From contig KL197715.1 in the NCBI GenBank assembly GCA_000697665.1, positions 255,427 to 319,426 of the forward strand: DNA of 64,000 bases. The letters are read 5' to 3'. Under the pieces are notes generated by a model. That model ran no database searches and was not told where the DNA came from. It saw nothing but the letters and a program-made list of their open reading frames with translations. The stretch is from Jaapia argillacea MUCL 33604 (taxonomy: Eukaryota > Basidiomycota > Agaricomycetes > Jaapiales > Jaapiaceae). Within the stretch, counting starts at the first letter, position 1. Each line of letters starts with the position of its first letter. The position numbers were made by a program, and so were the translations under genes. This document shows positions 14,375 through 50,923 of this stretch, one piece after another.

Positions 14375-16794
14375 ATGGCTGCCTCCTCTTCGGCAGCCTC
14401 AAAGTCCTATCTTTGCGACACCTTACCCGCACCGAGACTAGCTTCAGCTCAGGATATTCACCCTTCGTCTTCTCCAAACAACAGTCCCCCTCTCACCACT
14501 ACCTTTGACCTTCCCCCAATCGACGATTTAAAGTCAAATCTCGACACCATAAAGTCTGAGATAGCTGAGATCCAAGTCGATGACTCAGAAAGGGATTCCA
14601 CGTCTGGCTTTGCTTCCCAGTCCCAGCCGCCCGCTCGGAAACTGTGTGTTAGACATCAGAGAATGGCTGATGAAGGTATCTCGCTGAAAATGCAGAAGGT
14701 GAGCACGTTCGCCCCCTTGTCAGCCACTTGTCGCTTCTGTCTGTAATTGTAACCCAAACCAAAGGAGGCAGTGCTTATGTGACTCAGCGCTCGAACCTTG
14801 CATTGTCCCTCTCACAGCTTTGCCATCCATATCTCCACCTATTCTGTACACCTGTGCTGACTTCTTCGCTGCAACTGTAGGGGCTTGACGCGCTTCCCGT
14901 GCACGACCGCGAGGCTATCAACACCGTCTGGTCCACCTTTTCGTCTTCTCCCCATCCCCGCCGCGCGCTCATACTACAAGGTCTCCTCTCAATGTGCTGT
15001 TTCTCCCAATTATCATTCTTATCAGAACAACTCGAACACCTTATCCGTCTGGACCCCTTCTCAGTCCTTCCGCGCGAAGTAGCGCTAAAGGTCCTGACTT
15101 ATCTCGATGCCACGTCATTGTGTCGTGCAGCACAAGTGAGCAAACAGTGGCAGGGTCTCGCTGACGACGATATCCTTTGGCGCGGGATCTGCGAACAGCA
15201 CATTGGACAAAAGTGTCACAAGTGCGGGTGGGGTCTTCCGATCTTGGAGAAGAAGAGATTTATGAGGATACATTCCCGCTCACATCCGTCCTCCTTATCA
15301 ATGAACAAACGTGAATTGGAAGAGGATCCATTACTTCCCGACCGCCGTGCGATTAAACGACAACGATCACATCCTCCACCCGATCTCATGGATATCCAAT
15401 CCCCTCCATCATCAGCCATCGGAAGCCGGTGGCCTTCACCTCCTCCCTTCACCTCTCCACCTTTATCCCAGGAACATATGGTGACCCGACCATGGAAGGA
15501 TGTCTACTGCGAGCGTCTTACCATCGAGCGTAACTGGAGACGTGGGCGGTGTACGGTCCGCACACTAAAAGGCCACTCTGACGGAGTCATGTGTTTACAA
15601 TTCAGCGAAACGCTCTCCCATCCTTCATTCCCCATCTTAATCACTGGATCATACGATCGCACCGCGCGTGTGTGGAACCTCGAAACTGGAGTCGAGATCC
15701 GTTGTTTACGAGGTCACACGAGAGCGGTCAGAGCGCTCCAGTTTGATGAGGCGAAACTGATAACGGGGAGTATGGATCACACCATCAAGGTGTGGGACTG
15801 GAGAACTGGGCGGTGTCTTCGGACGCTGGAAGGTCACACTGAAGGCGTCGTGTGCCTGAATTATGATGAAAATGTGTTGGCGAGCGGGAGTGTGGACTCT
15901 ACGATAAAGGTGTGGAATTTTAGGACGAAAGAGAGTTTTACGTTGAGGGGACATAGAGATTGGGTGAATGCAGTGCAGCTCTGGAACTCGGCGCCTCCGG
16001 CTCCCAAGAGCGCTTCTCCCAGTTGTTCCTCGACTAACGGATTCGACTCGATATTCGAAGATACTTCAATGTCTTCTGCACCTTCTCAGTGCATCGATCC
16101 TGGGAAGATGTTATTCTCGGCATCGGATGATGGGACGATCAGGTTGTGGGATCTGTCCTTGCGAACTTGCGTACGACTGTTTAATGGTCACGTGGGTCAA
16201 GTGCAGAGCATGAAGTTACTTCTCGTCGATCCTGATTGTGATGATGAGCAGACTCCGACTCCCTCGTCGTCAGCCAATCTCCCGGCCCTTTCATCGCCTT
16301 CACCGAGGGATCCGAGATCTTTCATGTCGCCTGGCATTTCTGGATTGCCGGCATCATCTCTACCATCATCCCTACTCCCATTCGACCATCCAGGATACTC
16401 GGCACTCACAGCGACGCCTCCACCTGGCTTTGGTCAAAATGGGTTTTCCTCCATGACGCCCCGGGACACGAGACAAGCTTCGAGGCTCCCCAAACCCGTC
16501 CTCATTTCTGGGAGTCTCGATAATACCATCAAAATATGGGATATCGATACCGGCAAGGCTCTGAAAACGATGTTTGGTCATATTGAGGGTGTGTGGGCGG
16601 TGGCGAGTGATAAGTTGCGACTGGTTAGTGGGAGCCATGATCGGACGATCAAGGTTTGGAATCGGGATGAGGGGAGGTGTATGGCGACGCTTGTGGGCCA
16701 TAAAGGCGCTGTTACTTGTTTGGCTCTTGGAGAAGATAAGATTGTTTCGGGGAGCGACGATGGAGATATCAGAATATGGAGCTTTAGTGGTTAA
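14375..16794 (+). CDS. met30: Met30/SconB-type F-box WD40 protein
   Basis: Substrate receptor of an SCF ubiquitin ligase. In yeast and Neurospora/Aspergillus this family represses sulfur assimilation by targeting the Met4/Cys3-type activator. Two exons (14375-14698, 14881-16794) give 745 aa. The start is the ATG in CCAGATGG at 14375 (MAASSSAASK). After a disordered head come RHQRMADEGISLKMQK, then after the intron LDALPVHDREAIN and HPRRALILQG, as in Met30 homologues. The F-box is around residues 160-205 (LPREVALKVLTYLDATSLC). The family segment GICEQHIGQKCHKCGWGLP follows. The C-terminal WD40 propeller has repeats ending in RVWN, KVWD, KVWN, RLWD, KIWD, KVWN and RIWS, with Ser-rich inserts after the fourth and fifth blades. 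A fossil copy of its last codons lies at 21081 in the segmental duplication. Confidence 0.95.
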
Positions 16795-17086
16795 CATTAT
16801 ATTATCTTGTGACGGTTCGTTACCTTGTGTACCGAGATTCGACTTTCAACTTATCTATGTTTATTTTGCGACTTAACACGCCGTGCATTCGTAGCAAATG
16901 CCAGCAACATGTATTGACTAGAAGGAATCCCCTAGGTCCTACAATTGTCCCAAACAATCAAATAAGTACGGTATAGATACACCAAGTGATACTTGAACGA
17001 CATATATAACCACCAAAGCTAGAGCGAAACCGAGATAAAACCAAACTGCCCAGAGAGAGACTATGGGAGGGGAGGGTTACCAGATA

Positions 17087-20000
17087 TCACCGCGGCTTCG
17101 ACGGATACCCCACCGATCTGTGTTTGTCTTCCTCGTGTTCCTTTTCCTCATATGCCTTCCCCATCTTGTCGAGATCGATGGTTTCCCAGTTGCGATTAAG
17201 CCGACTGTCCAAATAATGCATTGTGTCCGGATCATGACCGCCTCGCACGTTAGGGAGGTGGTGTCGATAACGCAGTATGCTCCCCATTGCAGATCGGATT
17301 TCCGCACAGCGTCGATAATCCACCCAACTGAATCCCTCGTCATCGACTTTCTGGATGTGTGATGGCTTGAAGGATGTTGTCCATTCCCGAAGGTATGTGT
17401 CTCCACCCGCAAGTTGAGTTTGGTTTAAGTAAATACAACGAAGAGAACACACCTAGTACGGGTATGCATGGACCATTCCACTTCTCCAGGGCTTTTCGAT
17501 ATGCCGCCAAGGTGTAAAGTTCTTCTAGACGCTTCTGCCCATCAGAACGCCATCGAGCCTGAGGCCGTGTTATGGGTAGACTATTGAAGTAATGGGAATG
17601 AAGAGCACCGGCGATTGCGAAGGCGGAAGAGAAGTTGCCAATCTTGTGGCATCGCTGACAATGGGATGAGAGTGTTAATAAAATCACCCGAAGGCGAGGA
17701 GAGCAGCTCACAAGGGCTATTTGGACGAAGAAGCGATACATCGCCGCTCTCGCAGAACTGGATTCTGTTCCGGAACTGGCATCGCGGGCTTGAAGGACAG
17801 TAATGATGACCCAGTCCTTAATCTTGATACGGGTCTCCAAAATCTCCCGGATGTTGGAAGGTACCGTGGACGGAGAGTCACGTAGGTATGTCATACAATC
17901 CACATACGTGACTCGTGAGAAGAGTTCGGCCTCCAAAGTCGTAAGGGCTGCAGCTAAGCTATCGGAGCTTGGCCGTGAGACCTTCCCACTTCCGAGGGAT
18001 GATCGCGAGAAAGTAGGCGAGGGTTGACTCTAGAGTGTCATCAACAACCTTAGCGAGGAAACGAGAAGGCCCAAGGTTTAAAACTAACCCTGCTGGCCAT
18101 GAAAACCTCAACTTCTTCACTAAATGGAGACCTCGCAGTTCCGGTATGCGATTGTGGGGAGGATCGGATCTGAGCTATGTCTGAGGCATCCAAGACATGC
18201 AACCAATCCTGGCGGAGAGCACGGATCCTACCAGGTTGTCGGTGAGCGCGAACGAGAAATGCAGTCTCTCTTAACTCACCCAATGCGCCGTCCACCGGAT
18301 GAACTTTCAAGCAGTCTGTCGAACAGACTGAAGAGTTCCGGTGCCGTCGTGAAAAGAGGAAAGGACTGGATGAACAAGGTTCTAAAAATGTCTGAGGAAA
18401 GATCAGAATGTGAACTGGCGACACGAACTTCCTGGTGAAAGAAGCACTGACCGTGACGGGTGCTCACCAGAAATCGGATCGAGTCTTCAACGGTCCCGGC
18501 AACAACAGTGCGTCCGTCCAATTCAAAATTGATCCTTAATTCTCGTGGTGGTTCATTTGAAACTACAGGACTTGTCGTCTCCGGAATTTCGGGTAAAGCT
18601 TTATCCGTCATTGGCGTTTTGACCTTGTTGTTCTCTCGGCGCAAAGCTTCATTTGGGTATGGCTCGCTATGGTGACTGGACGGGCGTACGTATTGAGATC
18701 TTACTTCGGATTTTGGTCGGCCCCAATCAAACCACGTGACTCTGGTCGATCCTCCATCTGAAGATGAAGAGGCAGGTGGTCCCTGATTGTCGAAAAGATC
18801 AAGCGACGACAAGGCCGCTCGACTAGATCGAGAGGAGGAAGGAGCCCGAGCCAAAAGCTTTGATGTTGAAAACCGTGACAGAGAACGCGCGAGAGGCGAT
18901 AAATGTGAGGGCGATGGTGGATGTAGATCTTTCTTAATCTTGGAGATGGGTGAACGTCGGCTTGGGTCTATCTCCCAACAGGATTTCATGATGGTCCATA
19001 GTTGATCGGTAAGGCTGGGATCCTCAGGTCGTCTTAGATGACCCCGATTGTTAATGGCGGCGAAGACTTGATCGCTGGTAGCGAGGTTGGGGAACGGCTT
19101 GTCTCCTGTGCAGAGCTCGAGGCACAGCATACCGAAGCTCCAGATGTCAGAGCGTGGGGTCGGAGTCAGATCGTTTCTTGGATCCAGTAGTTCCGGGGCA
19201 AGCCAATTACAGAATTCACGGAAAGTTGTCAACCAAGAACCATGGAACTGCAAAAAAGGTCAGGAACATGTTGCAATATGCAGAGGAGATAACCACCTCT
19301 TGGATCAACCCAGCAAGACCGAAAGCTGACAGTAACGCTCTTCCGCTTGCATCGATCGTGATGGTAGCCTGCTCTGTTTGAGGCGATTCGATTCCATCTG
19401 AGAGGAAATGAAAAACTCACCCCACGAAGGTCTCCATGAACAATACCAATCTGATGCAAGTACTCCAGCCCTAGGGGGACTTTCAGGGCGAGCGCTGAAG
19501 GTTTTGGGACAATCATACCTGACGCTACATCTCGCAGCAGGGAGACAACATCGGCCTCACGCTCAAGAAACTTCGTAATGTCTCGCCTCGTCATCCAGGG
19601 CGTGACCTGCAAGTTTATAGATGTTGAGAGTCAACGGAAAAGAGGTACGTTCAACTCACGAGGAATACCTGATCGTCGATGACAGTAGTACCAAGGAAAT
19701 CAGGGATATTGTCATGCCGAATGGACTTCCAGCGTTCGACTTCCTGGCGGAACCTCTGAGTCGGGAGGGTTTATTAGCATCGCAAAGTCTCCCGTGGGCG
19801 CAGAAGGAGAGGAAGGGGCGAGAAAAACCAAACTAACCTTCTGGGCGGCTGGGGTCCCGTTTAGCATTATCGGGCGATGGAGCGCAACCTGGTGTGAGGC
19901 GGATTTAACAACTTCTAGAGTGACATTAACCAATGACGACTCACTAGGTCGCCATCCAAAGAGCCTTTCAGACGAGGACAATAAGTCCAATGGTCAAGCA

Positions 20001-20153
20001 TTCGTAGGACCTGACACTTGCCTTCGAAACACTCATAGAACCCGGCATTTACCCGACCACCCCTCTTGCGTATGTCGCCAAGGTCTGCGCCGAATCAAAA
20101 CGGTCAGGGTTCCATTCCATCTCAAAGCACGCGAACAGAAGCTGAGGGGGCAT
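17087..20153 (-). CDS. Pseudokinase-RasGEF fusion protein (copy A)
   Basis: Predicted Ras-type GTPase exchange factor with an N-terminal kinase-like domain. Exons read, from the 5' side: a glycine-loop relic (NAGFYECFEGKCQ) spliced to VALHRPIMLNGTP, RFRQEVERWKSIRHDNIP, DFLGTTVIDDQVFLV, LEYLHQIGIVHGDLRG, ATITIDASGRALLSAFGL, WLAPELLDP and SDIWSFGMLCLELCTG. The beta3 Lys is His, the catalytic-loop Asn is Thr and DFG is AFG, so ATP catalysis is unlikely. A Ser-rich linker follows. Then comes a RasGEF N-domain (VVAGTVEDSIRFLV...FRTLFIQSFPLFTT) and a CDC25 catalytic domain (ALTTLEAELFSRVTYVDCM, RIKIKDWVI, CHKIGNFSSAFAIAGALHS, NGPCIPVLG). The stop is at 17087. The first exon and start codon are not resolved; 20153 is an approximate limit. 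Which GTPase it serves is unknown. Confidence 0.75.
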
Positions 20154-20610
20154 GACACGAACATGGAAATGTCGAATCTAAGGTCGACTGTGCGAATGAA
20201 CCCATTATCGGACAAGGCGATTCCGGAAATAGTGGTATTAACAGTGTTCAGTTCAATGAAAGCTGAAGGGAGCGAGGGGTGAGGGGGTATAAAGTGTACA
20301 AGAGTCACTGGTTGTCAGACGACAACTTGAAGCAGAGAGTTCCAGCGTCTGCACAGCTTAGCATTGTCGCCTAAGTTGGTTTGGGCGGCTTTGGGTAGGT
20401 TTGACGGCGATAAGGACCGGAAATAGTCTAAAGCACCCGATTACACGGCCAACGATAACCTGAAACCACTAGACTTTGCAGACTCGAGAGCATACAGGAA
20501 GACACTGTAGTTCGTTGAAGAGGTGAATATTTGTGATCGAATTCGAAGCGAAGTTCAGTAAATCTTCTAATCTTCCGGCGATCTGTGAAAATGTCTCAGC
20601 TCCCACAATT

Positions 20611-20629
20611 GATGAGCCGTAGGCTCATC
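20611..20629. repeat. Short perfect inverted repeat
   Basis: GATGAGCC and GGCTCATC are separated by a GTA loop, an 8-bp perfect hairpin. The copy B counterpart at 23921-23935 keeps only the inner six pairs. It may be a transcript hairpin or chance; no function is claimed. Confidence 0.6.
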
Positions 20630-20809
20630 AAATCTGCTTCCATAGCAATAGCGGGGCTTCACATGGCTGCAGTGCTGTGCATAGTCCCGGCAAAATGTAC
20701 TTATAGAAGGACACGACAATGCTTCAGTCTATGCGCGCAGAGCCCCTCCAGAGTTCCCAAGAAAGCGACCGAAGCGCTGATCTATGCAAACTCTCCTCGG
20801 GAGTCACCC

Positions 20810-20957
20810 CTAAACACCCTCCCAGGGAATCACCCCACCACCCTCCCCCCACTCCTTCGGACTTTGCATCCTATACACACTCCCCTCCCTCCCCCTTCAC
20901 CCCCCCTATCCCCCTCCTTCCCCTCCCCCTCCCCCTCACTCGCATACCCACTATACC
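20810..20957 (-). pseudogene. Fossil 3' end of BRE2
   Basis: Partial duplicate of the last codons of the BRE2 gene (intact copy at 24123-26234). The stop-codon context ACCCCTAAACACC is kept, and a minus-strand reading contains RYSGYASEGEGEG, matching the GYSGYASSEEGEGE tail. It has only the terminal part, no start and no promoter, so it is a by-product of the duplication. Confidence 0.8.
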
Positions 20958-21080
20958 TGTGCTTCCATAGCAAATGGCAGGGCTTCACATGGTCCAGTGC
21001 TATGTTACTTGACGAAGGTGGGAAGGGCCACACGATAACGCTTCAGCGCGCAACACAGCTAATTACCCCCAAAATGTGCG
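20958..21080. repeat. Junction filler, third copy of a flank segment
   Basis: Between the two fossil gene ends sits about 120 bp that resembles 20637-20745. Shared strings include GCTTCCATAGCAA, GGCTTCACATGG, CAGTGCT and the order ...GAAGG...ACGATAACGCTTCAG against ...GAAGG...ACGACAATGCTTCAG. It is a diverged extra piece of the BRE2-side flank placed at the breakpoint. Confidence 0.6.
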
Positions 21081-21140
21081 TGTTTCGGGGAGCGACGATG
21101 AAGATATCAGGATATAGAGCTTTGGCGTTTAACATTATAT
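21081..21140 (+). pseudogene. Fossil 3' end of the Met30-type gene
   Basis: Repeats the final WD40 codons of the intact gene ending at 16794, with several substitutions. The codon for Trp in the terminal RIWS reads as a stop here, and the original stop is altered. Too short to be a gene; it marks the left breakpoint of the duplication. Confidence 0.8.
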
Positions 21141-21394
21141 TATGTTGCGATGGCTCTCTACCTTGCGCACCGAGACTCAACCTTCAAGTTACCTATCTTT
21201 ATTGTGACTTAACACGCCGCACATTCGTAGCAAATGACGACAGCGTACCCCTCGGTGCTACAACTGTCCCACACAATCAAATACACAAAGCGATAGTTGA
21301 ATGACATACTTATATAACCACCAAAAAAAAGAGCAAACCCGAGTAATAATCAAACCGCTTCAGAAAGAGGCTATGGGAGGGGAGGGGTCACCAG

Positions 21395-23395
21395 TTACCG
21401 CCGCGGCTTCACCGTAAACCCCACTGCTCTGAGTTTATCCTCGTCGCGTTCCTTTTCCTCATACTCCCTCCCCAGCTGGTCGAGATCGATGGTTTCCCAG
21501 TTGCGATTAAGCCGACTGTCCAAATAAGACATTGTGTCCAGATCATGACCAACTTTCGCGTCAGGGGGGTGGCTTCGACGACACAGTATGCTCTCCATTG
21601 CAGATCGAATTTCTGCACAGCATCGATAGTCCACCCAGCCGTCATCAACGATGTGTAATGACTGGAACGATGCTGTCCAATCCCAGAGGTGTGTGTCTCC
21701 ACCCGCAAGCTGAGTTTGGCTTTGTTAGATACGACAAAAGGAAACACACCTAGCACTGGTATGCATGGGCCATTCCGCTTCTCCAGGGATTTTCGATACG
21801 CCGTCAAGGTGTAAAGTTCATCCAAACGCTCGAGCTCATCAGAACGCTGTCGAGCCCGAGGCCGTGTTATGGGTAGATTATTGAAGTTACTGGAATGAAG
21901 GGCACCGGCGATTGCGAAGGCGGAAGAGAAGTTGCCAATCTTGTGGCATCGCTGACAATGAGATGAGTGTATTAATAAAATCACTCGAAGGTGGGGACAG
22001 CTCACGAGGGCCATTTGGACGAAATAGCGACACGTCGTCGCTCTCGCAGAACTGGAATCACGCGCTTGAAGGATTGTAAAGATGACCCAGTTCTTGATCT
22101 TTATACGGGTATCCAAAATCACCCGAATGTTGAAAGGTATCATGGACAGAGAAGCACGCAGGTATGTCATACAATCCACATACGTGACTTGTGAGAAGAG
22201 TTTGGCCTCCAAAGTCGTAAGGGCTGCAGCTAAGCTGTCGGAGGCTGGTCTTGAGACGCTTCCACTTGAGAGGGATGATCTCGAGACAGAGGGAGCGGGT
22301 TGGCTCTGGAGGGTCATCAACAACCTTAACGAGGAAACGAGATGGCTAAAGGCTTATAACGAACCTTACTGGCCATGACAACCTCAACATCTTCACGGAG
22401 TGCAGTTCCAGTATGCGATTGCAGGGAGGATCGGATCTGAGCTATGTCTGAGGAATCCAACTCATGCAGCCAATCCTGGCGAAGGGAACGGATCCTGCCA
22501 GGTTGTCCGTGAGCGCGAACCAAGAATGCAGTCCCTCTTAACTCACCCAATGTGTTGTACACTAGACGAACTCTCAAGCAGTCTGTCGAACAGACCCAAG
22601 AGTTCCGGAGCCGTCGTGAAGAGAGGAAAGGATTGGATGAACAAGGTTCTAAAAATGTCTAAAGAAAGATCAGAATGTGACCACGCGACACGAACTTTCC
22701 CGTGAAAGAAACACTGACCATGGTGAGTCTTCACCAGAAATCGGATCGAGTCTTCAACGGTCCCGGCAACAACAGTGCGTTCGTCCAGCTCAAACCTGAT
22801 CCTTAATTCTCGTGGTGGTTCATTTGAAACTGCAGGACTTGTTGTCTCCGGAATTTCAGGTAAGGCTTCACCTCTCATTGACGTTCTAGTATTGCTGTTC
22901 TCTCGGTCCAAAACTTCATTTGGGTATGGCTGGGTATGGTGACTGGACGGGCCTACGTATTGAGATCTTACTTGGGATGTTGATCTGCAGTCCCAATCAA
23001 TCCACGTGACTCTGGACGATCTTCCATCTGAAGACGGAGAATCCAAGGTGGGTGATCCCTGGTTGTCGAAGATCAAGCAGTGACTGGACCGGCGTACGTA
23101 TTGAGATCTTACTTCGGATTGTCGTCTGAAATCCCAATCAACCGACGTGACTCTGGACGACCCTCTATCTGAAGGCAGAGAATCCAAGGCAGGTGGTTCC
23201 TGGCTGTCGAAACCTGAAGAATCAAGCGACGGCGGGGCCGCTCGATTAGACTGAGAGGAGGAAAGCGCCCGAAACCTTGATGTTGAGAAACGTGACAGGG
23301 AGCGTGCGAGAGGCGACGAATGTGAGGGGGATGGCGGATGTAGATCTTTCTTAATTTTGGAGGTGGGTGGACGTCGGGTTGGGTCTATGTTCCAA
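21395..23395 (-). pseudogene. RasGEF paralogue lacking the kinase part (copy B)
   Basis: Duplicate of the 17.1-20.2 kb gene. The RasGEF N-domain (TVVAGTVEDSIRFLV, FRTLFIQSFPLFTTAPELL) and catalytic domain (ALTTLEAKLFSQVTYVDCM, RIKIKNWVIFTIL, CHKIGNFSSAFAIAGALHS, NGPCIPVLG, YLDSRLNRNWETIDLD) stay open with matching introns, ending at a TAA at 21395. The kinase-like domain is deleted from just inside the 5' end to its last helix (CWNIDPTRRPP). A stop lies directly upstream of that join and I find no in-frame ATG before the RasGEF part. The linker has a 141-bp in-frame tandem duplication (units from 22939 and 23080). A 5'-truncated pseudogene is the best reading, though a shorter RasGEF from an unseen first exon cannot be excluded. 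Confidence 0.65.
22939..23220. repeat. 141-bp tandem repeat, two units
   Basis: Two adjacent imperfect units (22939-23079 and 23080-23220) start GTGACTGGAC and include GTATTGAGATCTTACTT and CCCAATCAA. The minus-strand product reads SQYV...VTW/VTS-DWD-type repeats. The unit is 47 codons, so the frame is kept. Copy A has one unit, so this arose after the large duplication. Confidence 0.75.
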
Positions 23396-24122
23396 CATCA
23401 AGGCAGTCATATTCCATTAATCCACCTCAAAACACACAGACAGGAAGTAAAGGGGTATGACACCAACCTGGAAATGATGAACCTGAGCTCGACTGCGCGG
23501 AACTCATCATGGCACGGCGATTCCAGAAATGTTGATATTAACGGCGTTCAGTTCAAAGGAAGTTGGAGGGTCTGAGGGCATATAAAGTGTACAAGAGTCA
23601 CCGGTCGTCAGACGACACCTGAAAGCAGAGAGTTCCAGCGCCTGTACAGCTTAGCATTGTTCACCCAAGTCAGTTTGGGTAGGTTTAACGCCGATAAGAA
23701 CCAGAAATAGCATAAAGCACCCGGTTGCACTGCAACGGTCAACGATAAGCTGAGATTGCCAGACTTTGTAGAGTCAAGAATGTACAGACAGTAACTTACA
23801 GAAAAGCCATGGAAGTTTGTTGAAGAGGTGAGTAGTATTAGTGATCGAATTCGAAGCGGTGGTCAACAAATCTTATTTAATCTTCCGGCGATCTGTCAAG
23901 TGTCTCAGCCCCGCAATTAATGAGCCGTAGGCTCAAATTTGCTTCCATAGCAATGTCGCGGTTTCGCATGGCCGCAGTGCTATGCATAGTCCCAGCAAAA
24001 TGTACTTATAGAAGGACACACGACAATGCTTCAATCTATGCGCGCAGTGCCCCTCCAGAGCTCCCAAGAAAGCGACCAAAACGATGGTCGTTGTAAACTC
24101 TCCTCTGAGTCGGGAATCACCC
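23396..24122. other. Intergenic: copy B upstream flank / BRE2 3' flank
   Basis: These roughly 730 bp repeat 20135-20809 of the left copy and hold no independent gene. The region includes the decayed hairpin at 23921-23935. Confidence 0.6.
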
Positions 24123-26234
24123 CTAAACACCCTCCCAGGGAATCACCCCACCACCTTCCCCCCACTCCTTCGGACTTTGCATCCTATACACACTCCCTTC
24201 CCTCTCCCCTTCACCTCCCCCATCCACTTCCCCCTCCCCCTCCTCCGAACTCGCATACCCACTATACCCACCATAGCCCTGATCCGGAGTCTGCGCACCC
24301 GAAGTCGAGTAATACCCCTCGGTAACCATCAAATGATTAGGATCATTATCCGATTCCGAATAATGCGCGTCGTGGTCTTCGATACCAGGTTCGTCCTCTG
24401 CTGCTTTGATGTCGAATTCGAATTCGAAGTCGGCGCCGGGACCGAACCTATCGTCTTCCTCTACCTCCATCTTCTCTGCTCTCGCACCCTCTCCTTCACC
24501 ACCTTCTTCCTCCTCCTCCATCCTGGCATCCTCCTCTTCCTCCTTCCTCTGCCCAACAACCTCCTCTTCCACTTCCTCCCTCCTAGCCAACTCCCTCCTA
24601 ATCCTTTCCTCCTCTTCCTTCCTAGCCTTCTTCCTCCCCTCCGCAACAGCTCTCTTCTTCTCCCTCCCAGCCTTCTTCGCAGCTTCAGCCTTCTCCTCCT
24701 TCGCCCTAGCCGAGTACTCAGCTTCAGCAGCGATCTCATCAAGTTTATCCAACTCCCATTGTTCCGCCATATATTCAGGATACCGTTCGACGATAGGTCT
24801 CCAAGTCCTTTCCCCCTCGCCTCCCCGATCAGGATCAGACTTGGAATAAAGAGCGTCGATATCAGGAGGAGGAGGAAACTCAAACTCCGGCCCAGGGTTA
24901 ATCGTAACCATCGCATCATTAAAGAGCGATATGAAAACATAATACCCCAAACTCCCATCATCAAACAAATTCTCTTTATGCTCCCTTACCCCTCCCTCAC
25001 CTTTCGCCCCCTTCCTCCTCCCACCTTTCCCTTTCAACCCCCCACCACTAACTCGAAGGGGTAGGTAAGAATAGAGGTCTGAAAACGCGATTCCTTGGTC
25101 CTCGCCATTTATGAAGAAGGATATGTATGAGGTGGAGCCGAGGGTGGGGAGGGGACGGAGGGGGGCTACGGCTGGGAGAGCGTTCTTTGATGAGCGAGAG
25201 GGGAGAGATTTGGGTTTGGAAGGTAGGTTCTTGACCGTGGCGGACTTTTTGGTTGGAGAGGGGTGTGAGAGACCGTTGCTAGGTTTGTTCACGTCGCCAC
25301 CATGGCCACCTGCACCTACACTACCACCCACACCACCCGAGCTAGTTTTCGAAGCGTTCCCATCCATTAGAGCGTTCATCTCCTTTGATTGTGTATACTC
25401 CAACGACTCGAAATGTTCTTGCCCTTTGAAATCTATAGCGATGCGTTCGCGTTTGAGATGTGCTGGGTCGTGTGGGTCGTGTGGATCTGGTTGCCTGCGT
25501 GGTGGTAAGGATATGTACATCCCAATAACGTCTCCAGTCCCAAACTCCTTTGCATAGGGTTTAGTTCTCGAACAATGGATCTTTTCTCCGGTCTTGTCTC
25601 GGATTCCATACGAATAACCATCTAAACCCACTGGGGAGTTTAGAGGTGATTCACGACGACCCCAACCGAGTCTGACGTGTGAACCTTCACGGCGTGTGGA
25701 GGAGGGTGGCTTGTCGCCTCCGCCACGATCTATTTTGATTTCGACGTACCATTTACCTTCGCGGATAGGGGCGTTACACCTGGCACTTCTATATCCTTTG
25801 TCACCAAGTAAACCCAAACCGTCCTTTGTAACTTTGACGAACGGACTCCGATCTTCCCAGCTGACACGAAAACTCGTTGGGTTACTTTCGATTGTACGAA
25901 AGGGGGTGATACCCGATGAGTTTGGGGGAAGGATACCTGCGGGAGTGTATCTGTACCCGACGCGATTTACGGCTGATTGTTCTGTGTTGTGATACGGAGA
26001 CCCTTCGGATATGGGAACGAGGATTGGGAAGCGGGAGATTGTGAGGCGGGGCCGGGATGAAAGGTCATGACGGGCTGGGAGGACCGAGTGTTCGGCGGTG
26101 GCGGGCTCCGGCGTGTCGGCGTGTGCTCCGGCTGTGGCTCCGTGTTTTCGCTTTCTGGAGGGAGGATGAGAGGGAGGGAGGGGGAGGATGGGGAGGGGAG
26201 AGTCGTCGCGGGGAGGAGATGAGCCTGCGAACAT
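24123..26234 (-). CDS. BRE2: Bre2/Ash2-type SPRY protein of the COMPASS complex
   Basis: Subunit of the Set1/COMPASS histone H3K4 methyltransferase, in the nucleus. A single exon of 703 aa starts at the ATG at 26234 (MFAGSSPPRDDSP). The frame remains open upstream, but that ATG sits 99 bp from the divergent E2 start, so the longer form is unlikely. After a basic head (PSRKRKHG) comes GYRYTPAGILPPNSSG, then a split SPRY domain: FRVSWEDRSPFVKVTKDG, GYRSARCNAPIREGKWYVE, GSHVRLGWGRRESPLN, PVGLDGYSYGIRDKTGEK, GTGDVIGMYISLPP. A long insert is followed by ISFFINGEDQGIAFSDLYS and YVFISLFNDAMVTINPGPEFEF. The rest is a long charged, coiled-coil-prone tail rich in Glu, Lys and Arg, ending in Gly/Glu repeats. 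That tail end is the segment copied at 20810. Confidence 0.9.
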   Translation of the reverse strand: MFAGSSPPRDDSPLPILPLPPSHPPSRKRKHGATAGAHADTPEPATAEHSVLPARHDLSSRPRLTISRFPILVPISEGSPYHNTEQSAVNRVGYRYTPAGILPPNSSGITPFRTIESNPTSFRVSWEDRSPFVKVTKDGLGLLGDKGYRSARCNAPIREGKWYVEIKIDRGGGDKPPSSTRREGSHVRLGWGRRESPLNSPVGLDGYSYGIRDKTGEKIHCSRTKPYAKEFGTGDVIGMYISLPPRRQPDPHDPHDPAHLKRERIAIDFKGQEHFESLEYTQSKEMNALMDGNASKTSSGGVGGSVGAGGHGGDVNKPSNGLSHPSPTKKSATVKNLPSKPKSLPSRSSKNALPAVAPLRPLPTLGSTSYISFFINGEDQGIAFSDLYSYLPLRVSGGGLKGKGGRRKGAKGEGGVREHKENLFDDGSLGYYVFISLFNDAMVTINPGPEFEFPPPPDIDALYSKSDPDRGGEGERTWRPIVERYPEYMAEQWELDKLDEIAAEAEYSARAKEEKAEAAKKAGREKKRAVAEGRKKARKEEEERIRRELARREEVEEEVVGQRKEEEEDARMEEEEEGGEGEGARAEKMEVEEDDRFGPGADFEFEFDIKAAEDEPGIEDHDAHYSESDNDPNHLMVTEGYYSTSGAQTPDQGYGGYSGYASSEEGEGEVDGGGEGEREGSVYRMQSPKEWGEGGGVIPWEGV

Positions 26235-26333
26235 GAGGGCAGAAAGAGACCCTAACCTTACGGCAATCCAATTACCCCCTATGTACATCCGTATCCGATC
26301 ACGCGCCGCTACTTTGCCACTCACCTCGTCAAC
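26235..26333. promoter_or_regulatory. 99-bp bidirectional promoter BRE2 / E2
   Basis: Only 99 bp separate the divergent ATG codons of BRE2 and the ubiquitin-conjugating enzyme, so both 5' UTRs and promoters must share or overlap this piece or reach into the neighbouring genes. No consensus TATA box is obvious. Confidence 0.6.
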
Positions 26334-27700
26334 ATGACTGCTCTTCGGTACGTCAATTTGTAGATGCTGTATTACTTTTGCTGATGGTCCTGCAGTCGTA
26401 TTCAGAAGGTGTGCATCCTGCGATCCGTAGTCTAGTGCGAAATTCAATGCATATCATCGCAGGAACTCAAAGACCTGACCGCGAATCCAATCCAAGTCCG
26501 TCTCCAATCGCTCCCCATCTCGCGCGTACAACATCTCCTAACATCTCACACAGGGCCTCACCATCGATCCAAAGGACGATAGCATCTTCGAATGGGCCTG
26601 TGCGATCAAAGCCGCCGTCCGTCTAGCCCCTTTCCTCCTCTCCTCGCATCCCCACTCACCACCGCTCAAAGTTCAGTCAGACAGCCCTTACAAAGGCGGC
26701 ACTTTCCATTTCACACTTAAGATGCCTGACAACTTTCCTTTCAAAGCTCCCAGCGTATGTACTCATCCCTCCTTCCTTTACGTCCCACAATTCGGCTGAT
26801 TCAGCCATTACATACAATCTCCCGATGCGCGTTTGGTCATTGCAGGTCACTTTCACGACAAAGATCTACCATCCGGGTATTAATGAAGAAGGACATATCT
26901 GCGTGCCTATCTTGAGAGATGAGGTGCGTTCACTAATTAGTCCTCCTCGTTCATTACGCGCGGTAGACGCTTGGGTGATGGGCGCGTCCTCACTCTTTCC
27001 GCACCTTGGGCGCTTTAGGGGTGGTTGGTTTGGGCATCGTTTTATGATGGATGTCGGTTTACGTGAGGAGATGAAGATCTGGGGTGCTGAACGAAGGATC
27101 CTTGTTCTCGGGTGTTTCGTTATGATTTTCTGACGATCAGGCGCTGGTTGATTTAATTATCGCCCTTTCCTCCGTGTTTCCGTTCACGTCCATTTCTTAC
27201 CTTCGATCGCCTTGCCTTTCATTTCCTACCGTCGATCAGCTTGCTAAACGTTGGCCTCACTTTTGGGGTTTTAATGCTATAGTGGAAGCCCTCCATCACG
27301 CTATCAACAGGTACGCCCACCTCTTCTTCCTCTTCCCCTTTGAGATTGCTAAACTCGTCCAATGACCCAACTTCGGATCTTGTACCACGCTTATTGTGCA
27401 GTTCTCTCCGTGATCCAAGAGAAACTCAATAACCCAAGCCCGGATGATCCCTTCGAACCTGACATCGCCGCTGTAAGCACCTCTCACCGCCTCCCCTTCC
27501 CCCATTCAAATCCTGACGAGAAAAACGTTGCTTTTGTTAAATCATTGTTGCTCGCGGTGTTTGCGTGGATAGCAATTGAAGAACGACAAGTCAAAGTTCT
27601 TGGCCACCGCAAAGGAATGGACTAAGAAGTCTGTCTTTTCTCCTCCGTCTTTCTTTCCCCCTTTGGTACTGATTATCGTCGGAATAGACACGCTTCTTAA
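26334..27700 (+). CDS. UBE2L-type ubiquitin-conjugating enzyme E2
   Basis: Carries activated ubiquitin on a cysteine and passes it to E3 ligases. Ten exons (26334-26347, 26396-26408, 26463-26495, 26554-26616, 26677-26754, 26846-26923, 27283-27310, 27402-27472, 27573-27628, 27688-27700) sum to 447 nt, or 148 aa. The order is MTALRRIQKELKDLTANP, FEWACAIKAASDSPYKGG, FTLKMPDNFPFKAPSVTF, YHPGINEEGHICVPILRD, EWKPSITLSTVLSVIQEKL and AKEWTKKHAS. The catalytic Cys is residue 86, as in human UBE2L3. The usual HPN motif reads HPG. The ICVPI and WKP context fits the UBE2L class rather than Ubc4. The sixth intron is 359 nt, far longer than the others, and some exons are only 13-14 nt. The last exon is chosen because it restores the KKxA tail and a stop. 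Confidence 0.92.
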
Positions 27701-28909
27701 CTCTGGGCGATGGAGAATTCAGGGCGTGGAGAAGAGAGGCGGGGGCCGCGTAGAAGATGTGGATCTCTACATTTCTTTACGTGCCATCGTATTGTATCAT
27801 CATCAGTCATCTCGAAGCGAATTGTGACGTTCCACCATCCATCGTCGTCTCACTAACTTGGCAAGCGCGAACGGTCTCTGATTCCCATTTGGTATTACTA
27901 CTTTGAGTTTGGGGGTTGTGAGACAACTGAGTTGGGAGGGATGCAAAGTAGTCATAGGAAACAGCTCACCGGGTCTGACTTGAGATAGGTAAGAAAAAGA
28001 TAGTTGATAATCTATGTGTTTCTGCCCTATCTCGAAGCAGTGGGTTGGGAAATACGTACCTCACATTGCTACAATACTTGAAACCCGTGTTGTGGACATA
28101 CATCGTCGGTCTTCGTTGATGAAGAAGTTAAGAACGTGAGGCCTGAGGGGACTGTCTAGTCCAGTGAAACAGAAACCGAGCAAAGCAGAGAATCCCTGTT
28201 CAGAGTGAAATCAGAGCCAGAATGTGCAGTGGTGTGGAACGGCTAGCTCGTACGGACCTAATCGGGGAACAAAAGTGTGAGATATTGGCTACAAACGGCC
28301 TCTCGCATCGTATTAATGTTGAGCTATCCGGAAGTTGTGAGAATGTGGAGGGAAGAAAACATACATCTACGTCCAACTCTGGGCCAGATTTGAGAATAAA
28401 TATTTGGAGTTGGCCCCTCCCGAGTAGTCGAGTTCTAGGGATTATTGAGCACTGTGGCTTATGTATAGTGAAGCTCAGAGTATGATCCAAGCTGGTTGTA
28501 GTCCCGACGGACCAGAAAGTGCTGTAAGGTTCGGCCCACCGGCCGTTCCGAAGCGTTGCCCACAACGCCACGTGGACCCGAACAACGTCTGATCCGAGTC
28601 GTCCCAGATCCCGACAATTAGATGCTTTGATCATCCGTCCACTGTTCCACGACTCGGACGAACCTCCAGTCGGTTCAAGGAGGATACTTCCCCAGCGGCG
28701 CTCGCCTCGTCTCGCCTGGTTTATATGCTGATACCAGCGCCTCCTGGTTTTGGTTGCTATGGCCATTACAAGCATAATGCCTTACCTCACCACTATGCCC
28801 GTTATCGTCAACTACAGCGCTTTCTAACGCAAGCTCACTGGACTTGAGAGTCTCGCAGGTTTGATACAACCACTCGCCACCCTATTTTTGCTTGATACTT
28901 GTCGACCAT
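27701..28909. other. 1.2-kb gap between E2 and RasGEF C
   Basis: No supported gene. A minus-strand open frame of 191 codons spans 28200-28775 but shows no motif or family resemblance and is treated as chance. The E2 3' UTR and the RasGEF C promoter should lie here. Confidence 0.45.
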
Positions 28910-30617
28910 ATGAACTTGCTAGATGAAATAACGGACCGTTTGCAAGCCATGTCCTCATCTAATCCTGATCTTGGTTCGTGTCCTGTTCTCCTCCGGGTAT
29001 ATTTGCCAGCTGAAGCTGAATTGGAGCAGGTCTTCGCGAATACAGGCACTCTGGATTCAGTTTCATATCAGCAACCTCCATTCCTTTTCCACCTTCGAAC
29101 AGGGTGTCCAGCTCCCTTTCTCATCACAGGAGGTCAGGGGATACGGTCACCCAGAGTACTTCGTCGTCTCCAGAACATGAGACGAGGGTGTATTATGTCC
29201 AGCGCGATAGAGGTGGCAGAACTGTTGCTGCAGGGACGTTGCAGGGCTCGATTGAGTACCTTATCGCGAACCCCAACGGTGTGTGCCGCGTCGTGCGTCG
29301 ATCCGAGATTTTTCACTCATTGTCGTGCTAGCCTCTTTCAGATCCACTTTCCTCAACACATATCCACTTTTCACCTCGATCCGAGGACTGTTTGGTATAT
29401 TCAGCCAAATATACGAGGTTTCGGGACGCGATCAGCGCCTCAGGTGAGTGTCTGCGGAAGATTATTACACGATCTCCTCTTGCTCACCGCTTCCGCAGAA
29501 TTTTGTTTCTCTTTAAGGAGTGGCTGCACACGGGGGATGATATTTGTGAGACCTTGCCTGCCCCAGAGGGCACATCTACCTCTGGTTCATCTAGTCGGCT
29601 TATCGAAGAAATTAGCGTTGCCATGGTTGGAAAAGAGGTCCATCTCTCCGTCGGAATCCATGTTTCTATGATCTGATGTGGCCCCATTGTATGTTTTCAC
29701 AGCGGATTTCAGCGGATGCCTGTTCCCTGTCGCCGGACATGAAAACTCCCAAGAGAGCAGATCTGGCTATTGCCTTGACGGCCTTGGAGGGAGAGCTTTT
29801 CTCCAAGGTCACCTGCGCCGATTTGATGATGTACCTCGCTCAGCGTCGCAATCCACGCGAGCACATCATTCCATCCACTATCCGTGCTATCCGCGAGACG
29901 CGCACCAAGATCGGGAATTGGGTCAAATGTACTATTCTATCTTCAACGCCTGAGCAGATGGATCTGAGAAGAGGCCGCTATAATTTATTCATGTCTTTGG
30001 CTGAGGTAAGTATCCGACTGGCCACACGAGTGGAGGAGGTGATAACCGCCTATCGTCAGGATTGCCATAAACTTCGCAACTTCTCCTCCACTTTTGCTAT
30101 TGTCGCGGCGCTACACTCGCAAACCTTCAAGGATTTGCCTTTCACGACGAGCGGCGACCGTGGGATGTGGAGCGGAGATAAGCTAGGAAAGTATGTCGAT
30201 ATCCAAGCCTATGAAAAAGCCTTGCGAAAATGGACTGGTCGAGGTCCATGTGTACCCGTGCTAGGTATGTCCCACCCCAGCCCACATTTTACCCGACCTC
30301 AAATTACCAATGCAGACCACCACCTTGAAGTGTTGACAACTCAGTTCAGCGAACTGGATATACACAGTCGCGATGCTCCGAACATGATTGATTATCGGCG
30401 TTGCGAGGAGATACAAACATGGGTGTTGGAAAACATCCTGCGATATCGGGTAACAACCCCTGACGGATACCGAGCTGATAATTGGGGCGTCATGGACTAC
30501 CTGCAAACGAGGCTCAATCATAATTGGGATAGCTTCAATCCCGAAGCCCTCAGCGCTGAATATGCGAGCCTCGAGAAGAAACATGACCGTCTCCAATCGG
30601 TCGGGGCACGCAAGTGA
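28910..30617 (+). CDS. RasGEF paralogue C (no kinase domain)
   Basis: Third Ras exchange factor of the cluster, in opposite orientation to copies A and B. The ATG at 28910 (MNLLDEITDRLQAMSSSNP) is the likely start. Later exons give RVYYVQRDRGGRTVAAGTL and QGSIEYLIANPN, then SFRSTFLNTYPLFTSIRGL (RasGEF N-domain), EWLHTGDDICETLPAPEG, ALTALEGELFSKVTCADLM, RTKIGNWVKCTIL, CHKLRNFSSTFAIVAALHS, GPCVPVLG, MIDYRRCEEIQTWVLENIL and YLQTRLNHNWDSFNPEAL (CDC25 domain). The stop is at 30615-30617. It is clearly homologous to copies A and B but more diverged, so an older duplicate. No kinase domain is seen upstream. Several introns were inferred but not all exon ends fixed; the exon order in the first 300 bp is tentative. 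Confidence 0.75.
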
Positions 30618-45358: not shown

Positions 45359-48330
45359 GATGGGGTATCAGGGTATCGGTGGGTAAGAGACTTGGAGGGG
45401 GGTTATGGAGGAGGGGTTGTATTTTTGACAGGCCTTTATAAAAGGGTGGGCGTCCCCCAGCGGCCCCTCGGCGCGTTATACTTGATGCTTCGGTTCCACA
45501 GCAACCATTGTCCCGATAAACCTGCCGCGGAGTTTTAGTCGAGAACCGAAAACGAGATATCAGGATAACTGGACAAAGGCCATGGCGGATCGAATCGGCG
45601 CCAACCTCAGGTCCATCACATGTCCTTCCGTTGCCTCTTTCCCCACATTCATACACTGCTTAATCTCAAGATCTGCTTCGCTGGCTACTTTTCGTTAGCA
45701 GCCCGGTAGCGTTTCATATACATTCATCCAATCAACGATATCCTCGAGTTGATTGTATGCACGATCGCAAACGGCGAGTAAAGGTCGAGTAAAATCCGAC
45801 CCCCATGTGGACTTGACGATATTTAGCTCAGATTTCCACACTCAAGTTACTATTAGCTCCTCTGAGCAAGGGGAGGACCCTTCAAGCAGGGTGTGTTAGA
45901 CTTGGAACAGCTTCCCTATCTCCAAAGAGTCTCCGAAGTCGTTCATGACCAGCTGCCACCACGGTATGTCCAAGAAATCTGAACAATGATTGGCGTTGCT
46001 TGATCCTTTAGTACATAAACCCGATCGATGAAATGGTAACATATCAAATCTCCAACAACCGGGCGTCTGTCCGTGGAATCTCCGAAGTATATCACTAGTA
46101 AATATGGAGAAAGGGATCAGAAACGCTGGGTGGTGCAACGAAAAGATCTGTCTCGATACGTACAGCGGAACACCGTGAGGACACGAGATGAGGGAAGGGA
46201 TCCGATGGAGGTGGGGATGAGCGGGGTATCACGAACACCGAGGACACATCTTGCCACAAAGGGCTTGCAACGAGGTGAACTTTGAGCTAGAAGGGCACCA
46301 ACGGCGTCGGAAAAGTGACCGAGTCTACGATTTCTGGAGTCGGATGCTGCGTAACGTGAAAGACACTAGATTCCTTCCCGTGTTGTGAAGGAGCAGCGGT
46401 GCACGTGAAGGCCTTCAGCGAGGTCAACTGTTGCAGCCCGTAGGCACAGGTACCTGCAAGGTTCACAGGAGGTATCGTACGAGGATATTGAGAGCCGGCC
46501 TTGGGTCCAGACAAGAAGAGGATAGCCGCCCAGCAAGACTCGGTGCTACAGCACGGCGAACTCACGAGAGCAAGGGACGCCCATCCAGGATCAAAGGGAA
46601 GGCGTAAAAATGATCGACGAGCAACAAGTCATTCCAAGAAAGAGCTGGTGCCCTGTAGCCGCTGTACGTTGATAGAGGTCATGAGACCAAATCGTGGGTA
46701 CGAGATCGTAAGATCGTTGAGGGTAAGGAGGTAAAGTCCCTGTGGGCGGTGAAAATCAGGGTCTCGCAGCCCGGAGTGGAGACGGGAGCAGACGGTTTGG
46801 AACGGAAAAAACAGATGTGCCTTCCCACCCAGAGGAAACGGATCGGAGATGTCAACTATGGACAGACTGGCAGGACCAACAAAATTTCTGGGTCATTTTT
46901 CCCGAATATTTTCTGGGCGCTCGGGCCGCGTTGCAGGAAGGTCGTCCGTGTCATATCGGGCGACGAGCTCGTTGAATCTTGAAATTCAACTGGTCACTCT
47001 TCGGCAACCATGGGCTCGAAGATGTGCCTAGCAATGGCACAACTCTCTTGCCCAACAGTGAAGCGTTCGACGCCTCGAAGCATATGATTGTTGATTGTCA
47101 ATGGTCCGGGAACGTGTGGTGGGTGAGTGTGCAGGTTCTGCCTCGGATAGTGGCACAGGTACTGATTTTGGAGCGGTCGTTCAGTCGTGGACCCAGAGTC
47201 TCCAGTCGGAAATCGTTTCGATCATTTCTCCCAAACTCTCCACTAATTGGTCGTTCAGCCCAAGAGCACCTTCCAGTTACTTCCAGTCTGATTATATGCA
47301 GCAGCCGAAGATCGCTTGAACTGGTCTGGCTTCCAAGCACTCCACAGTAGCATCCTCCTACCTATGAAGCAGCTGATCGAGCCTAGCCACAAACTGTTCG
47401 TGCGTCCGCGCCGTGGACATGTTCGTGACCACCCATTTGACGCAAACCAACGCCTTGGAGCGCAGCATTTGGATTCTGAACCTCTTTTCTGACTTTCCAG
47501 CTAATCCGGTTCCATCACCCGAACCCAAATCGAAATTCGACGAATTTGACTCTTCTCGTTGGAGCCTATGCTCCATCACTGGCGACGTCAACGTGTTCCC
47601 GTTCTGAAGCTTACTACAGGGGGGTGTCAAGGCTTTCCCTACCCCGACCAATCTCCGAGGGGGCTCGTCATTGGTATCATTCCGGCGAATTATCATGGTT
47701 ATCTCACCCGTGCTTACGAGTCTTGCAGTGACAACTTCCATGCTCTCCACCGGCGCTTTGGTATCGTCGAGACGAGCCTGCCGGGTACCGGATACCACGT
47801 ATGCCCATCTTTCAACGATCACCATTTCCTCGGGCGATTTTCGATGGCCCCTGCTATTCTGGCACGCGGCGATCCATCCCAGTCTGACATGGATGCACCT
47901 TGCCAGGGAAGAACACAGTGGGCCAAGCAAATCGCATGAGAACATGCCGGCTCTGGTCTCCACATGCATACTCTCCCGTATGACCTGAGGATGCTGTCCC
48001 GACGGCTTGACCAGTCCTCGTTGCTTCAAAATTTCCATTCTTGATCTCGTCTTCACATCTTATCTCCTCCCACTCGCGATCACGTGACATCGTACGGCAT
48101 AGAATGACTGGTGGACCTCTTCTCCAACGCTTCTCTCTCATTATAGCCTCGTACTCTGGTCGACGATACCTTAAGTCTCGTACAGTAAGGAGATAAGCAA
48201 CTATATTAACGCGATTGAGAGTGTTTCCATCGCTGGGAGCATGCGGGTACTCCTTCTTGTGGCGCTTAAGTAAAGCAGCTTGTCATCGCAAGGTCGACGT
48301 GCGATCACCCCGTACTGTGTCAGGCTCAGG
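45359..48330. other. 3-kb region with unresolved coding-like pieces
   Basis: No gene could be named. A minus-strand open frame of 232 codons (47358-48056) is the longest and lacks motifs. Minus-strand pieces such as LYLLTLNDLTISYPRFGLM (about 46650-46740) and AGSQYPRTIPPVNLAGTCA (46430-46520), and the plus-strand piece SASDSGTGTDFGAVVQSWT (47135-47190), look protein-like but do not join into one model. The last 300 bp are the promoter of amidase 1, also present upstream of amidase 2. Confidence 0.35.
48045..48330 (+). promoter_or_regulatory. Amidase 1 promoter with GATA sites
   Basis: This segment is similar to about 50622-50923 upstream of amidase 2, so it was copied with the gene. It has a reverse GATA site (CTTATC, 48059-48064) and a forward AGATAAG (48191-48197) 134 bp before the start codon. 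Amidase 2 has the same pair. GATAAG is the core of fungal nitrogen regulators of the AreA/Nit2 type, which would fit a nitrogen-scavenging amidase. Regulation is inferred, not shown. A CACGTG at 48081-48086 is not kept in the second copy. Confidence 0.5.
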
Positions 48331-50398: not shown

Positions 50399-50923
50399 TA
50401 GCGACATGAAGACAATGGATGACCCAAAAGGCACCATGATGTAGGGGGTCGGGCAATCTGTTGCATACCAGTGTCCACGACGGTCGGAATGGAATGGAAT
50501 TTAGTTACTACATACCCTAAAACAGTGGGAGACTCGATAAGTCCTGAGCCTTGGCAGAAGATGCCGTCTGCATCTTACGAACTCGTACCGCAAGCCTGTG
50601 GAGGCCTTGTTACTTCAAATTGCCCTTCTTCACATCTTATCTCTTTACCCTCGCGGTCACATGACGCTGTACGGCAGCGGATGCGTGAATGCAGCTCTTT
50701 TCTCCAGCACTTCCAAGCTCTTCTCTCTCATTATAGCCATCAACTATGCTCCTGGATGCCTCGACTCGGAATCTTGTACGGTATGCAGATAAGACTATAT
50801 CAACACCATCGATAGTTCCTTTGCGACTCCGAAAGTGAAGGGCTTCATGTCTTTTGGTCCTTAAATAATGGGGCAATTTCGCCAGAAGGTCGTGTGAACA
50901 CCCCGCGCGGTTTCAAGATCAGG
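50399..50923 (+). promoter_or_regulatory. Intergenic and amidase 2 promoter with GATA sites
   Basis: The first 200 bp are amidase 1 3' flank. From about 50622 the sequence matches the amidase 1 promoter. CTTATC at 50636-50641 and AGATAAG at 50787-50793 stand as in the first copy, the latter 131 bp before the start codon. Conserved spacing between two diverged paralogue promoters argues that the sites matter. Confidence 0.5.

Follow-up and report, generated by a model that had tools for sequence, protein, structure and literature searches.

We analysed a 64,000-nucleotide stretch (the window) of the Jaapia argillacea MUCL 33604 genome, contig KL197715.1, in which a RasGEF locus lies in two copies between a Met30-type gene and BRE2. 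The copies and their flanking genes are:

14992..16794, + strand: intact Met30-type F-box/WD40 gene, left flank (600-codon open reading frame; F-box-like and WD40 domains)
16743..20957, no strand: copy A of the duplicated segment, from self-comparison
21081..24268, no strand: copy B of the duplicated segment, from self-comparison
24123..26288, - strand: intact BRE2/ASH2 gene, right flank (SPRY, 1e-7; structure-chain matches)

Solved chains of F-box/WD repeat proteins 7 and 1A and of CDC4 were among the best 60 of 446 matches to the Met30-type gene, and the BRE2/ASH2 gene matched solved chains of ASH2 (about 2e-23) and BRE2 (5e-13 to 1e-10). In DNA searches of the genome each flanking gene was found once, together with one 3' fossil; the BRE2 search also gave a further weak 70% match on contig C47.

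Self-comparison of 15.0-26.5 kb revealed that A and B are tandem, head-to-tail copies of one segment. The left diagonal joined 16743-18804 to 21081-23078 (81.9% identity, offset +4338, E = 0.0) and the right diagonal joined 20110-20957 to 23412-24268 (79.1% identity, offset +3302, E = 0.0), with an extra match of 18672-18980 to 23080-23397. These offsets agree with the approximately 4.3 kb on the left and 3.3 kb on the right expected in a preliminary description of the locus, and the end points it had proposed, 16743 and 24268, were both reproduced. The tandem segmental duplication at 16743-24268 is confirmed, and genome searches of the 43.7-Mb assembly found such a duplication at this place only. 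That description had the RasGEF locus doubled, which holds for the two copies but leaves out the later kinase loss in B and a third RasGEF beyond BRE2.

With the kinase gap left out, the copies differed at 399 of 2789 aligned sites (14% divergence). There was no strong C-to-T bias at one dinucleotide between A and B of the sort that RIP-mutated duplicates would show: transitions were spread over the contexts CpA (60), CpC (66), CpG (73) and CpT (72), and RIP-type mutation of the copies was dropped for this reason. The ratio (CpA+TpG)/(ApC+GpT) was 1.13 in copy A and 1.14 in copy B. The 90-site interval of lowest divergence (A 20788-20877, 2 differences) covered the BRE2 fossil and its 3' edge, and an interval as low was reached in 64 of 2000 permutations. 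Gene conversion of the BRE2 tail was set aside, since low divergence is anyway expected where a fossil is compared with a live copy under constraint.

Both ends of the duplication fell in the terminal codons of the flanking genes, as previously described: on the left the segment takes in 52 bases of the F-box/WD40 gene, with its final 16 codons and stop, and on the right 146 bases of the BRE2/ASH2 gene, with its final 47 codons and stop. One full copy of each gene does survive outside. Met30 is essential in yeast and Bre2 is not known to be. The suggestion that the locus doubled without harming essential neighbours is correct in that both neighbours are whole, but Bre2 would not fit the word essential, and a tandem duplication of X-Y always keeps the left gene whole beside the first copy and the right gene whole beside the second, irrespective of breakpoint position. 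Unharmed neighbours are therefore no special feature of this locus.

A single new junction joins segment end to segment start, with single flanks and a 123-bp insert inside:

20810..20957, - strand: BRE2 3' fossil, stop codon retained (91% match at the DNA level to the final 143 bases of the BRE2 query)
20958..21080, no strand: junction insert (partial third copy at 20960-21053; 21054-21080 without clear source)
21081..21132, + strand: Met30-type 3' fossil with in-frame TAG (88% over 52 bases)

Both fossils were found within the joint predicted at about 20810-21140. The BRE2 fossil has a frame change, after which EGSVYRMQSPKEWGEGGGVIPWEGV and the stop are kept, and the Met30-type fossil translates as VSGSDDEDIRI*SFGV*, compared to VSGSDDGDIRIWSFSG* in the live gene. 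The two fossils had been described as directly adjoining, and this did not hold, as the 123 bp of the insert lie between them. The junction does join the BRE2 3' end to the Met30-type 3' end, but it is not a simple two-ended one, with a third partial copy inside. A genome search with the junction sequence, which scored only the best candidates and skipped very common words, gave matches at the joint, in copy B and at the 3' end of the live Met30-type gene and nowhere else, unlike a dispersed repeat. A transposon or dispersed repeat at the junction was rejected on the basis of this search.

An assembly artefact, or two haplotypes placed in series, is a highly improbable source of this structure. 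The copies differ at 14% of sites and in structure, the fossils are decayed, with an in-frame stop and a frame change, and the window spans 255-319 kb of its contig rather than the contig start. With 399 differences in 2789 sites a misjoin is very unlikely, and serial haplotypes would leave both BRE2 and the Met30-type gene complete at the joint, where clipped genes were found.

The insert at 20960-21053 is a third, degraded partial copy of A at about 20635-20741, the sequence 3' of BRE2, in the same orientation (E 1.2e-7). Its local alignment to A scored 89, compared to 53 for the best of 1000 dinucleotide shuffles (0/1000), and none of 1000 shuffles reached the score against copy B. The second half alone is strongly degraded and needs gaps to align; its score was reached by 2/1000 shuffles against A and 1/1000 against B. 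In the first block the insert was identical to A at 40/44 positions and to B at 38/44, with A and B identical at 38/45; in the second block the values were 31/38 to A, 32/40 to B and 50/52 between A and B. The insert is as far from A and B as they are from each other, or farther, and thus looks no younger than the duplication. In block 2 the insert is clearly farther from either copy than A is from B, and this also fits an older third copy.

This last point bears on a triplication followed by collapse, in which three tandem units once existed and two deletions left only the 95-bp fragment 20960-21053 of the middle one. A same-orientation third copy whose second half is more diverged from A and B than A is from B would be in keeping with such a history, as would the nearby third RasGEF, which shows more than one duplication at this locus. 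The two additional deletions would, however, have to end immediately next to the fossils of BRE2 and the Met30-type gene, and the junction search of the genome (joint, copy B and live Met30-type 3' end only) found nothing else of a middle unit. We consider triplication unlikely. Less likely still is a simple junction made by one unequal crossover or end joining, to which a separate local tandem duplication of 325-bp period afterwards added the 95-bp insert. The spacing from 20635 to 20960 is 325 bp, as expected of such an event, but where the insert meets the Met30-type fossil it lacks the remainder of the 325-bp unit, and its apparent age argues against a later arrival.

The ancestral break sites shared only a 14-column match, the score of which was reached by 427 of 1000 mononucleotide shuffles. 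Homology-driven unequal crossing over between these sites was rejected because the match is at chance level. No exact microhomology was seen at either switch point; a shared word, CCATAGC (20965 and 24271), lies near, not at, the left switch. The genome's one DNA polymerase A family match was polymerase gamma. Polymerase theta was not found in this family search, which a gene split by many introns could escape, and a polymerase-theta route is not favoured because polymerase gamma was the sole match.

We favour one old event in which the RasGEF locus was tandemly duplicated through replication-type template switching with two backward jumps, at a probability of about 0.72, a value that covers the duplication history and not the use of both copies. 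We infer the jumps and their order from the copies, the fossils, the third partial copy and the single flanking genes. Synthesis in the + direction would have run through the RasGEF locus into the last BRE2 codons (equivalent to 24268). A first backward jump, of about 325 bp, would have landed immediately beyond the 3' end of BRE2, where about 100 bp would have been copied, and a second, of about 4 kb, would have landed among the final codons of the Met30-type gene (equivalent to 16743). The whole unit would then have been copied again, onward into BRE2, to give the order Met30 (whole), A, BRE2 tail, short third copy, Met30 tail, B, BRE2 (whole). Afterwards B would have lost about 1.1 kb of kinase sequence and acquired the 141-bp repeat in frame, with the RasGEF frames of both copies staying open.

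The genes and coding differences of the two copies, and the related gene beyond BRE2, are:

17087..20079, - strand: copy A gene, kinase then RasGEF (model of 11 exons, the start of the first placed arbitrarily within an open frame)
18981..20109, - strand: kinase-coding stretch in A, absent from B (1129 bp; the gap between the diagonals)
21395..23391, - strand: copy B gene, a kinase-free RasGEF (five exons common with A; start codon provisional)
22939..23220, - strand: 141-bp in-frame tandem repeat, B only (units 22939-23079 and 23080-23220)
29741..30617, + strand: catalytic part of the third RasGEF, C

Spliced, copy A has no stop before the terminal one (813 letters, that stop counted) and matched PK_Tyr_Ser-Thr (7.8e-37) and RasGEF (1.5e-19; 71.0 bits, above the curated PF00617 cut-off of 23.1). 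By motif rules, active kinases carry the catalytic-loop Asn and the DFG Asp. Both are absent from copy A, where HGDLRGAT and SAFG aligned to HRDLRAAN and ADFG of a Src chain. In the beta-3 lysine region VALH stands at the likely site, judged by eye; the two kinase alignments begin after it. Copy A encodes a predicted kinase-RasGEF protein with a degenerate kinase. The kinase class, the short introns and the presence of BRE2 and Met30-type genes suggest a fungal sequence, probably from a basidiomycete. Copy B has 594 open codons, its frame open through both units of the 141-bp repeat, and passed the same RasGEF cut-off (6e-20; 72.3 bits against 23.1). A candidate upstream exon for B, joining in phase, was spotted by eye. 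RasGEF C, which also passed the PF00617 cut-off, was, at 44% identity, the closest other relative of A and B found in the genome; it sits on the other side of BRE2 and is a more distant paralogue. All three thus carry the RasGEF (CDC25) domain, joined in A to a kinase. By domain score A, B and C are members of the RasGEF family, with putative exchange activity on a Ras GTPase. A profile search of these RasGEF proteins, taken as far as E = 0.1, did not detect RasGEF_N.

Over the five shared exons the RasGEF frames of A and B are both open (557 and 594 codons), at a synonymous divergence of about 0.25 substitutions per site. The dN/dS between them was 0.515 (bootstrap 0.39-0.68), and 0.585 in the catalytic part; values near 0.5 are also expected from one constrained and one released copy, so that only the rate test and the indel pattern favour constraint on both. 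Coding indels were multiples of three in 6/6 cases, compared to 9/25 elsewhere (p 0.007), when one 2-bp gap at 18793, where the alignment enters the B-only repeat, was dropped, and in 6/7 cases (p 0.027) when it was restored. Relative-rate counts against C showed no asymmetry (13 vs 10, p 0.68; 23 informative columns).

Judged apart from the duplication, copy B may be a pseudogene still without a stop codon, a doubtful reading with which the deleted kinase, the unsettled start codon and the dN/dS values are compatible. Its 594 open codons and the GT/AG ends at four modelled introns have, however, persisted through the synonymous divergence given above, its indels, the 141-bp repeat included, are in frame, and its branch has no excess of changes. 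Most likely each copy yields a protein that is in use, a pseudokinase-RasGEF from A and a RasGEF lacking the kinase from B, as the coding sequences suggest.

Among the literature matches listed, by title and abstract opening, no paper appeared to describe this locus. A Drosophila survey (PMC4503668) reports tandem segmental duplications with breakpoints inside genes. The present locus is similar in its tandem copies, breakpoints within genes and partial genes at the junction; unlike those cases it is old and diverged (399/2789), with clipped 3' ends only and no evident chimeric protein. Work in C. elegans (PMC7368036, PMC8654963) describes polymerase theta end joining as a source of templated insertions, mainly at deletion junctions, and of tandem duplications, which measure about 0.1-10 kb in HELQ mutants. 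The insert here is likewise templated by nearby flank, but it is near 100 bp and old, and the genome search gave polymerase gamma only. The kinase of copy A resembles the FslK group, fungi-specific TK-like kinases expanded in Agaricomycetes (PMC3937382), in being of the PK_Tyr_Ser-Thr class, fungal and locally duplicated, a likeness by domain class. FslK members are called likely active there, whereas copy A has AFG for DFG and HGDLRGAT for HRDLRAAN; RasGEF is absent from the main text of that paper.

The event is of a known, ordinary kind, and its record is clear and well preserved. The junction is old enough for the copies to have diverged, yet it keeps both clipped tails and the templated insert, so that a single site records both how the duplication arose and what followed. 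More tentatively, two successive backward switches in a genome without polymerase theta might have divided a pseudokinase-RasGEF fusion between two genes that are both maintained, the fusion itself (A) and a RasGEF that has no kinase but a new upstream exon (B), the kinase loss being a change of function and not decay. The two copies test whether a kinase-RasGEF protein tolerates losing its degenerate kinase or whether such a loss is favoured.

Self-comparison of 15.0-26.5 kb revealed the two parallel diagonals foretold by the preliminary description. One paired 16743-18804 with 21081-23078 (81.9% over 2079 columns) and the other 20110-20957 with 23412-24268 (79.1% over 887 columns). The two head-to-tail copies of the RasGEF segment, A and B, were also recovered piecewise by a repeat finder and base by base in a full alignment, confirming the tandem duplication. 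Mismatches were seen at 399 of 2789 aligned sites when 18981-20109 of copy A, the kinase stretch absent from B, was left out. The assembly (43.7 Mb, 95 contigs) contains the 7.5-kb stretch a single time, on contig C7 at 272-280 kb.

Features of the duplicated locus
14992-16794, left flanking gene, Met30-type (F-box and WD40 repeats)
16743-20957, copy A
20810-20957, BRE2 fossil (clipped 3' gene tail)
20958-21080, insert between the fossils
21081-21132, Met30-type fossil (clipped 3' gene tail)
21081-24268, copy B
24123-26288, minus strand, right flanking gene, BRE2/ASH2 protein (matches to structure relatives)
29741-30617, plus strand, catalytic part of C, a third RasGEF

Among solved structures, the left gene is related to CDC4 and to F-box/WD repeat proteins 7 and 1A, among others, although designed propellers and a WD-40 repeat protein ranked higher; "Met30-type" is the earlier label and is used here without distinction from other F-box/WD40 subfamilies. 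DNA searches of the genome found each flanking gene once, plus one fossil of each at the joint: 91% identity over 143 query bases for BRE2 and 88% over 52 bases for the Met30-type gene. A third BRE2 match, on contig C47, was weak (70%). The Met30-type fossil contains an in-frame TAG; the BRE2 fossil has a frame change yet keeps its final 25 codons and stop. The survival of both neighbours, presented earlier as notable, needs no explanation: every tandem duplication leaves the left gene whole by its first copy and the right gene whole by its second, and the outcome is therefore automatic. Tandem duplications breaking inside genes are a class described in PMC4503668, and the A-B duplication is a good example of this known type of event. 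Among the open-licence papers listed by literature searches, none appeared to describe the locus.

While the outline of the preliminary description held, its fossils were not directly joined: 123 bp separate them. The first ~95 bp of this insert match, in the same orientation, the stretch just 3' of BRE2 in A and B, and the insert starts 325 bp after its source in A. Its first 46 columns gave E values of 1.2e-7 against A and 6e-5 against B. A longer gapped alignment scored 89 (A) and 84.5 (B), and none of the 1000 dinucleotide shuffles run for each copy came as high (best 53 and 61.5); the second part alone was weaker, with 2 (A) and 1 (B) of 1000 shuffles equalling its score. Over ungapped columns, the insert's distance to A and to B was about equal to the A-B distance in block 1 and exceeded it in block 2. 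In an automatic three-way alignment, the insert alone stood apart at 25 of 91 columns, versus 9 A-B differences, an excess due in part to misplaced gaps. By these distances, the insert looks at least as old as the duplication.

The joint would be reached most simply if the template switched backward twice, by 325 bp and by ~4 kb. We infer that replication-type switching may be favoured over polymerase theta, because the sole polymerase A family match found in the genome was polymerase gamma. Templated insertions at polymerase-theta junctions are known, mainly on deletions in the portions consulted (PMC7368036, PMC8654963). The ancestral break sites shared only a 14-column match, reached by 427 of 1000 shuffles. 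The switch points showed no exact microhomology; near the left one, both sides carry the word CCATAGC (20965, 24271).

Divergence between A and B by region
Intergenic, 3' side: 0.176
Introns: 0.150
Coding: 0.142
Upstream, distal: 0.186
Upstream, proximal: 0.109
BRE2 fossil: 0.063
Met30-type fossil: 0.115

The least diverged stretch covers the BRE2 fossil with its edge (20788-20877; 2 of 90 sites). Equally low values arose in 64 of 2000 permutations, so this minimum is at most suggestive. No RIP-like context bias was found between A and B.

Elsewhere in the window, a more diverged tandem duplication pairs 48050-50397 with 50627-53112 (65% DNA identity over 2536 columns), the frames resembling, by eye, two amidase-signature genes. 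A tandem array of ~150-180 bp units (71-84% identity) occupies 58377-59470.

Copy A, read on the minus strand, encodes a protein whose kinase (PK_Tyr_Ser-Thr, E 7.8e-37) is joined by a linker to a following RasGEF domain (E 1.5e-19). Its reading is open across 11 modelled exons, exon 1 being cut at an arbitrary point in the open frame, with a single, terminal stop. Kinases usually carry a catalytic Asn, a DFG Asp and a beta-3 Lys. In the A kinase (19297-19888), HGDLRGAT aligned to HRDLRAAN and SAFG to ADFG of a Src chain, leaving the Asn and Asp absent; VALH, without the Lys, stands at the likely beta-3 lysine site, judged by eye outside the aligned stretch. The product is probably a pseudokinase fused to RasGEF.

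Copy B lacks 18981-20109 of A yet retains the kinase's final residues (NIDPTRRPPTSKIKKDL against EIDPSRRSPISKIKKDL), suggesting loss by B rather than gain by A. The copies share five exons, whose frames stay open over 557 codons in A and 594 in B (first coding exon of each gene provisional), and a 141-bp repeat in B spans 47 codons in frame. Coding identity was 76.7% over 541 aligned codons, with dN 0.127, dS 0.247 and dN/dS 0.515 (bootstrap 0.39-0.68; linker 0.454, catalytic part 0.585). Seven coding indels were listed up to 18800, short of the coding sequence in the kinase-gap part of the alignment. With a 2-bp gap at 18793 dropped, where the alignment enters the B-only repeat, 6 of 6 were multiples of three, versus 9 of 25 outside (Fisher 0.007); the proportion was 7 of 7 counting the 141-bp repeat (Fisher 0.003) and 6 of 7 with the 18793 gap restored (p 0.027). 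With C as outgroup, 13 changes fell on B and 10 on A, with 34 undecided, among 240 columns (p 0.68). On these results both copies look maintained, though B could have been released from constraint.

A RasGEF family search of the genome gave 16 matching pieces, which positional grouping reduces to 11 loci, with A, B and C among them. The catalytic part of A matched itself, then B (two pieces, 78% and 68%), then C at 29.7-30.6 kb (44%, E 1.9e-36); beyond these there was only a 31% match (E 0.014). Of the other loci found in the genome, C is the nearest to A and B; it lies beyond BRE2 in the opposite orientation, and two of its introns fall at points corresponding to those of A. The frame upstream of C (28865-29668) had no Pfam match. 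Between BRE2 and C, frames at 26542-27660 resemble, by eye, a ubiquitin-conjugating enzyme. The RasGEF locus has therefore probably gone through two or more local duplications, of which A-B is the younger.
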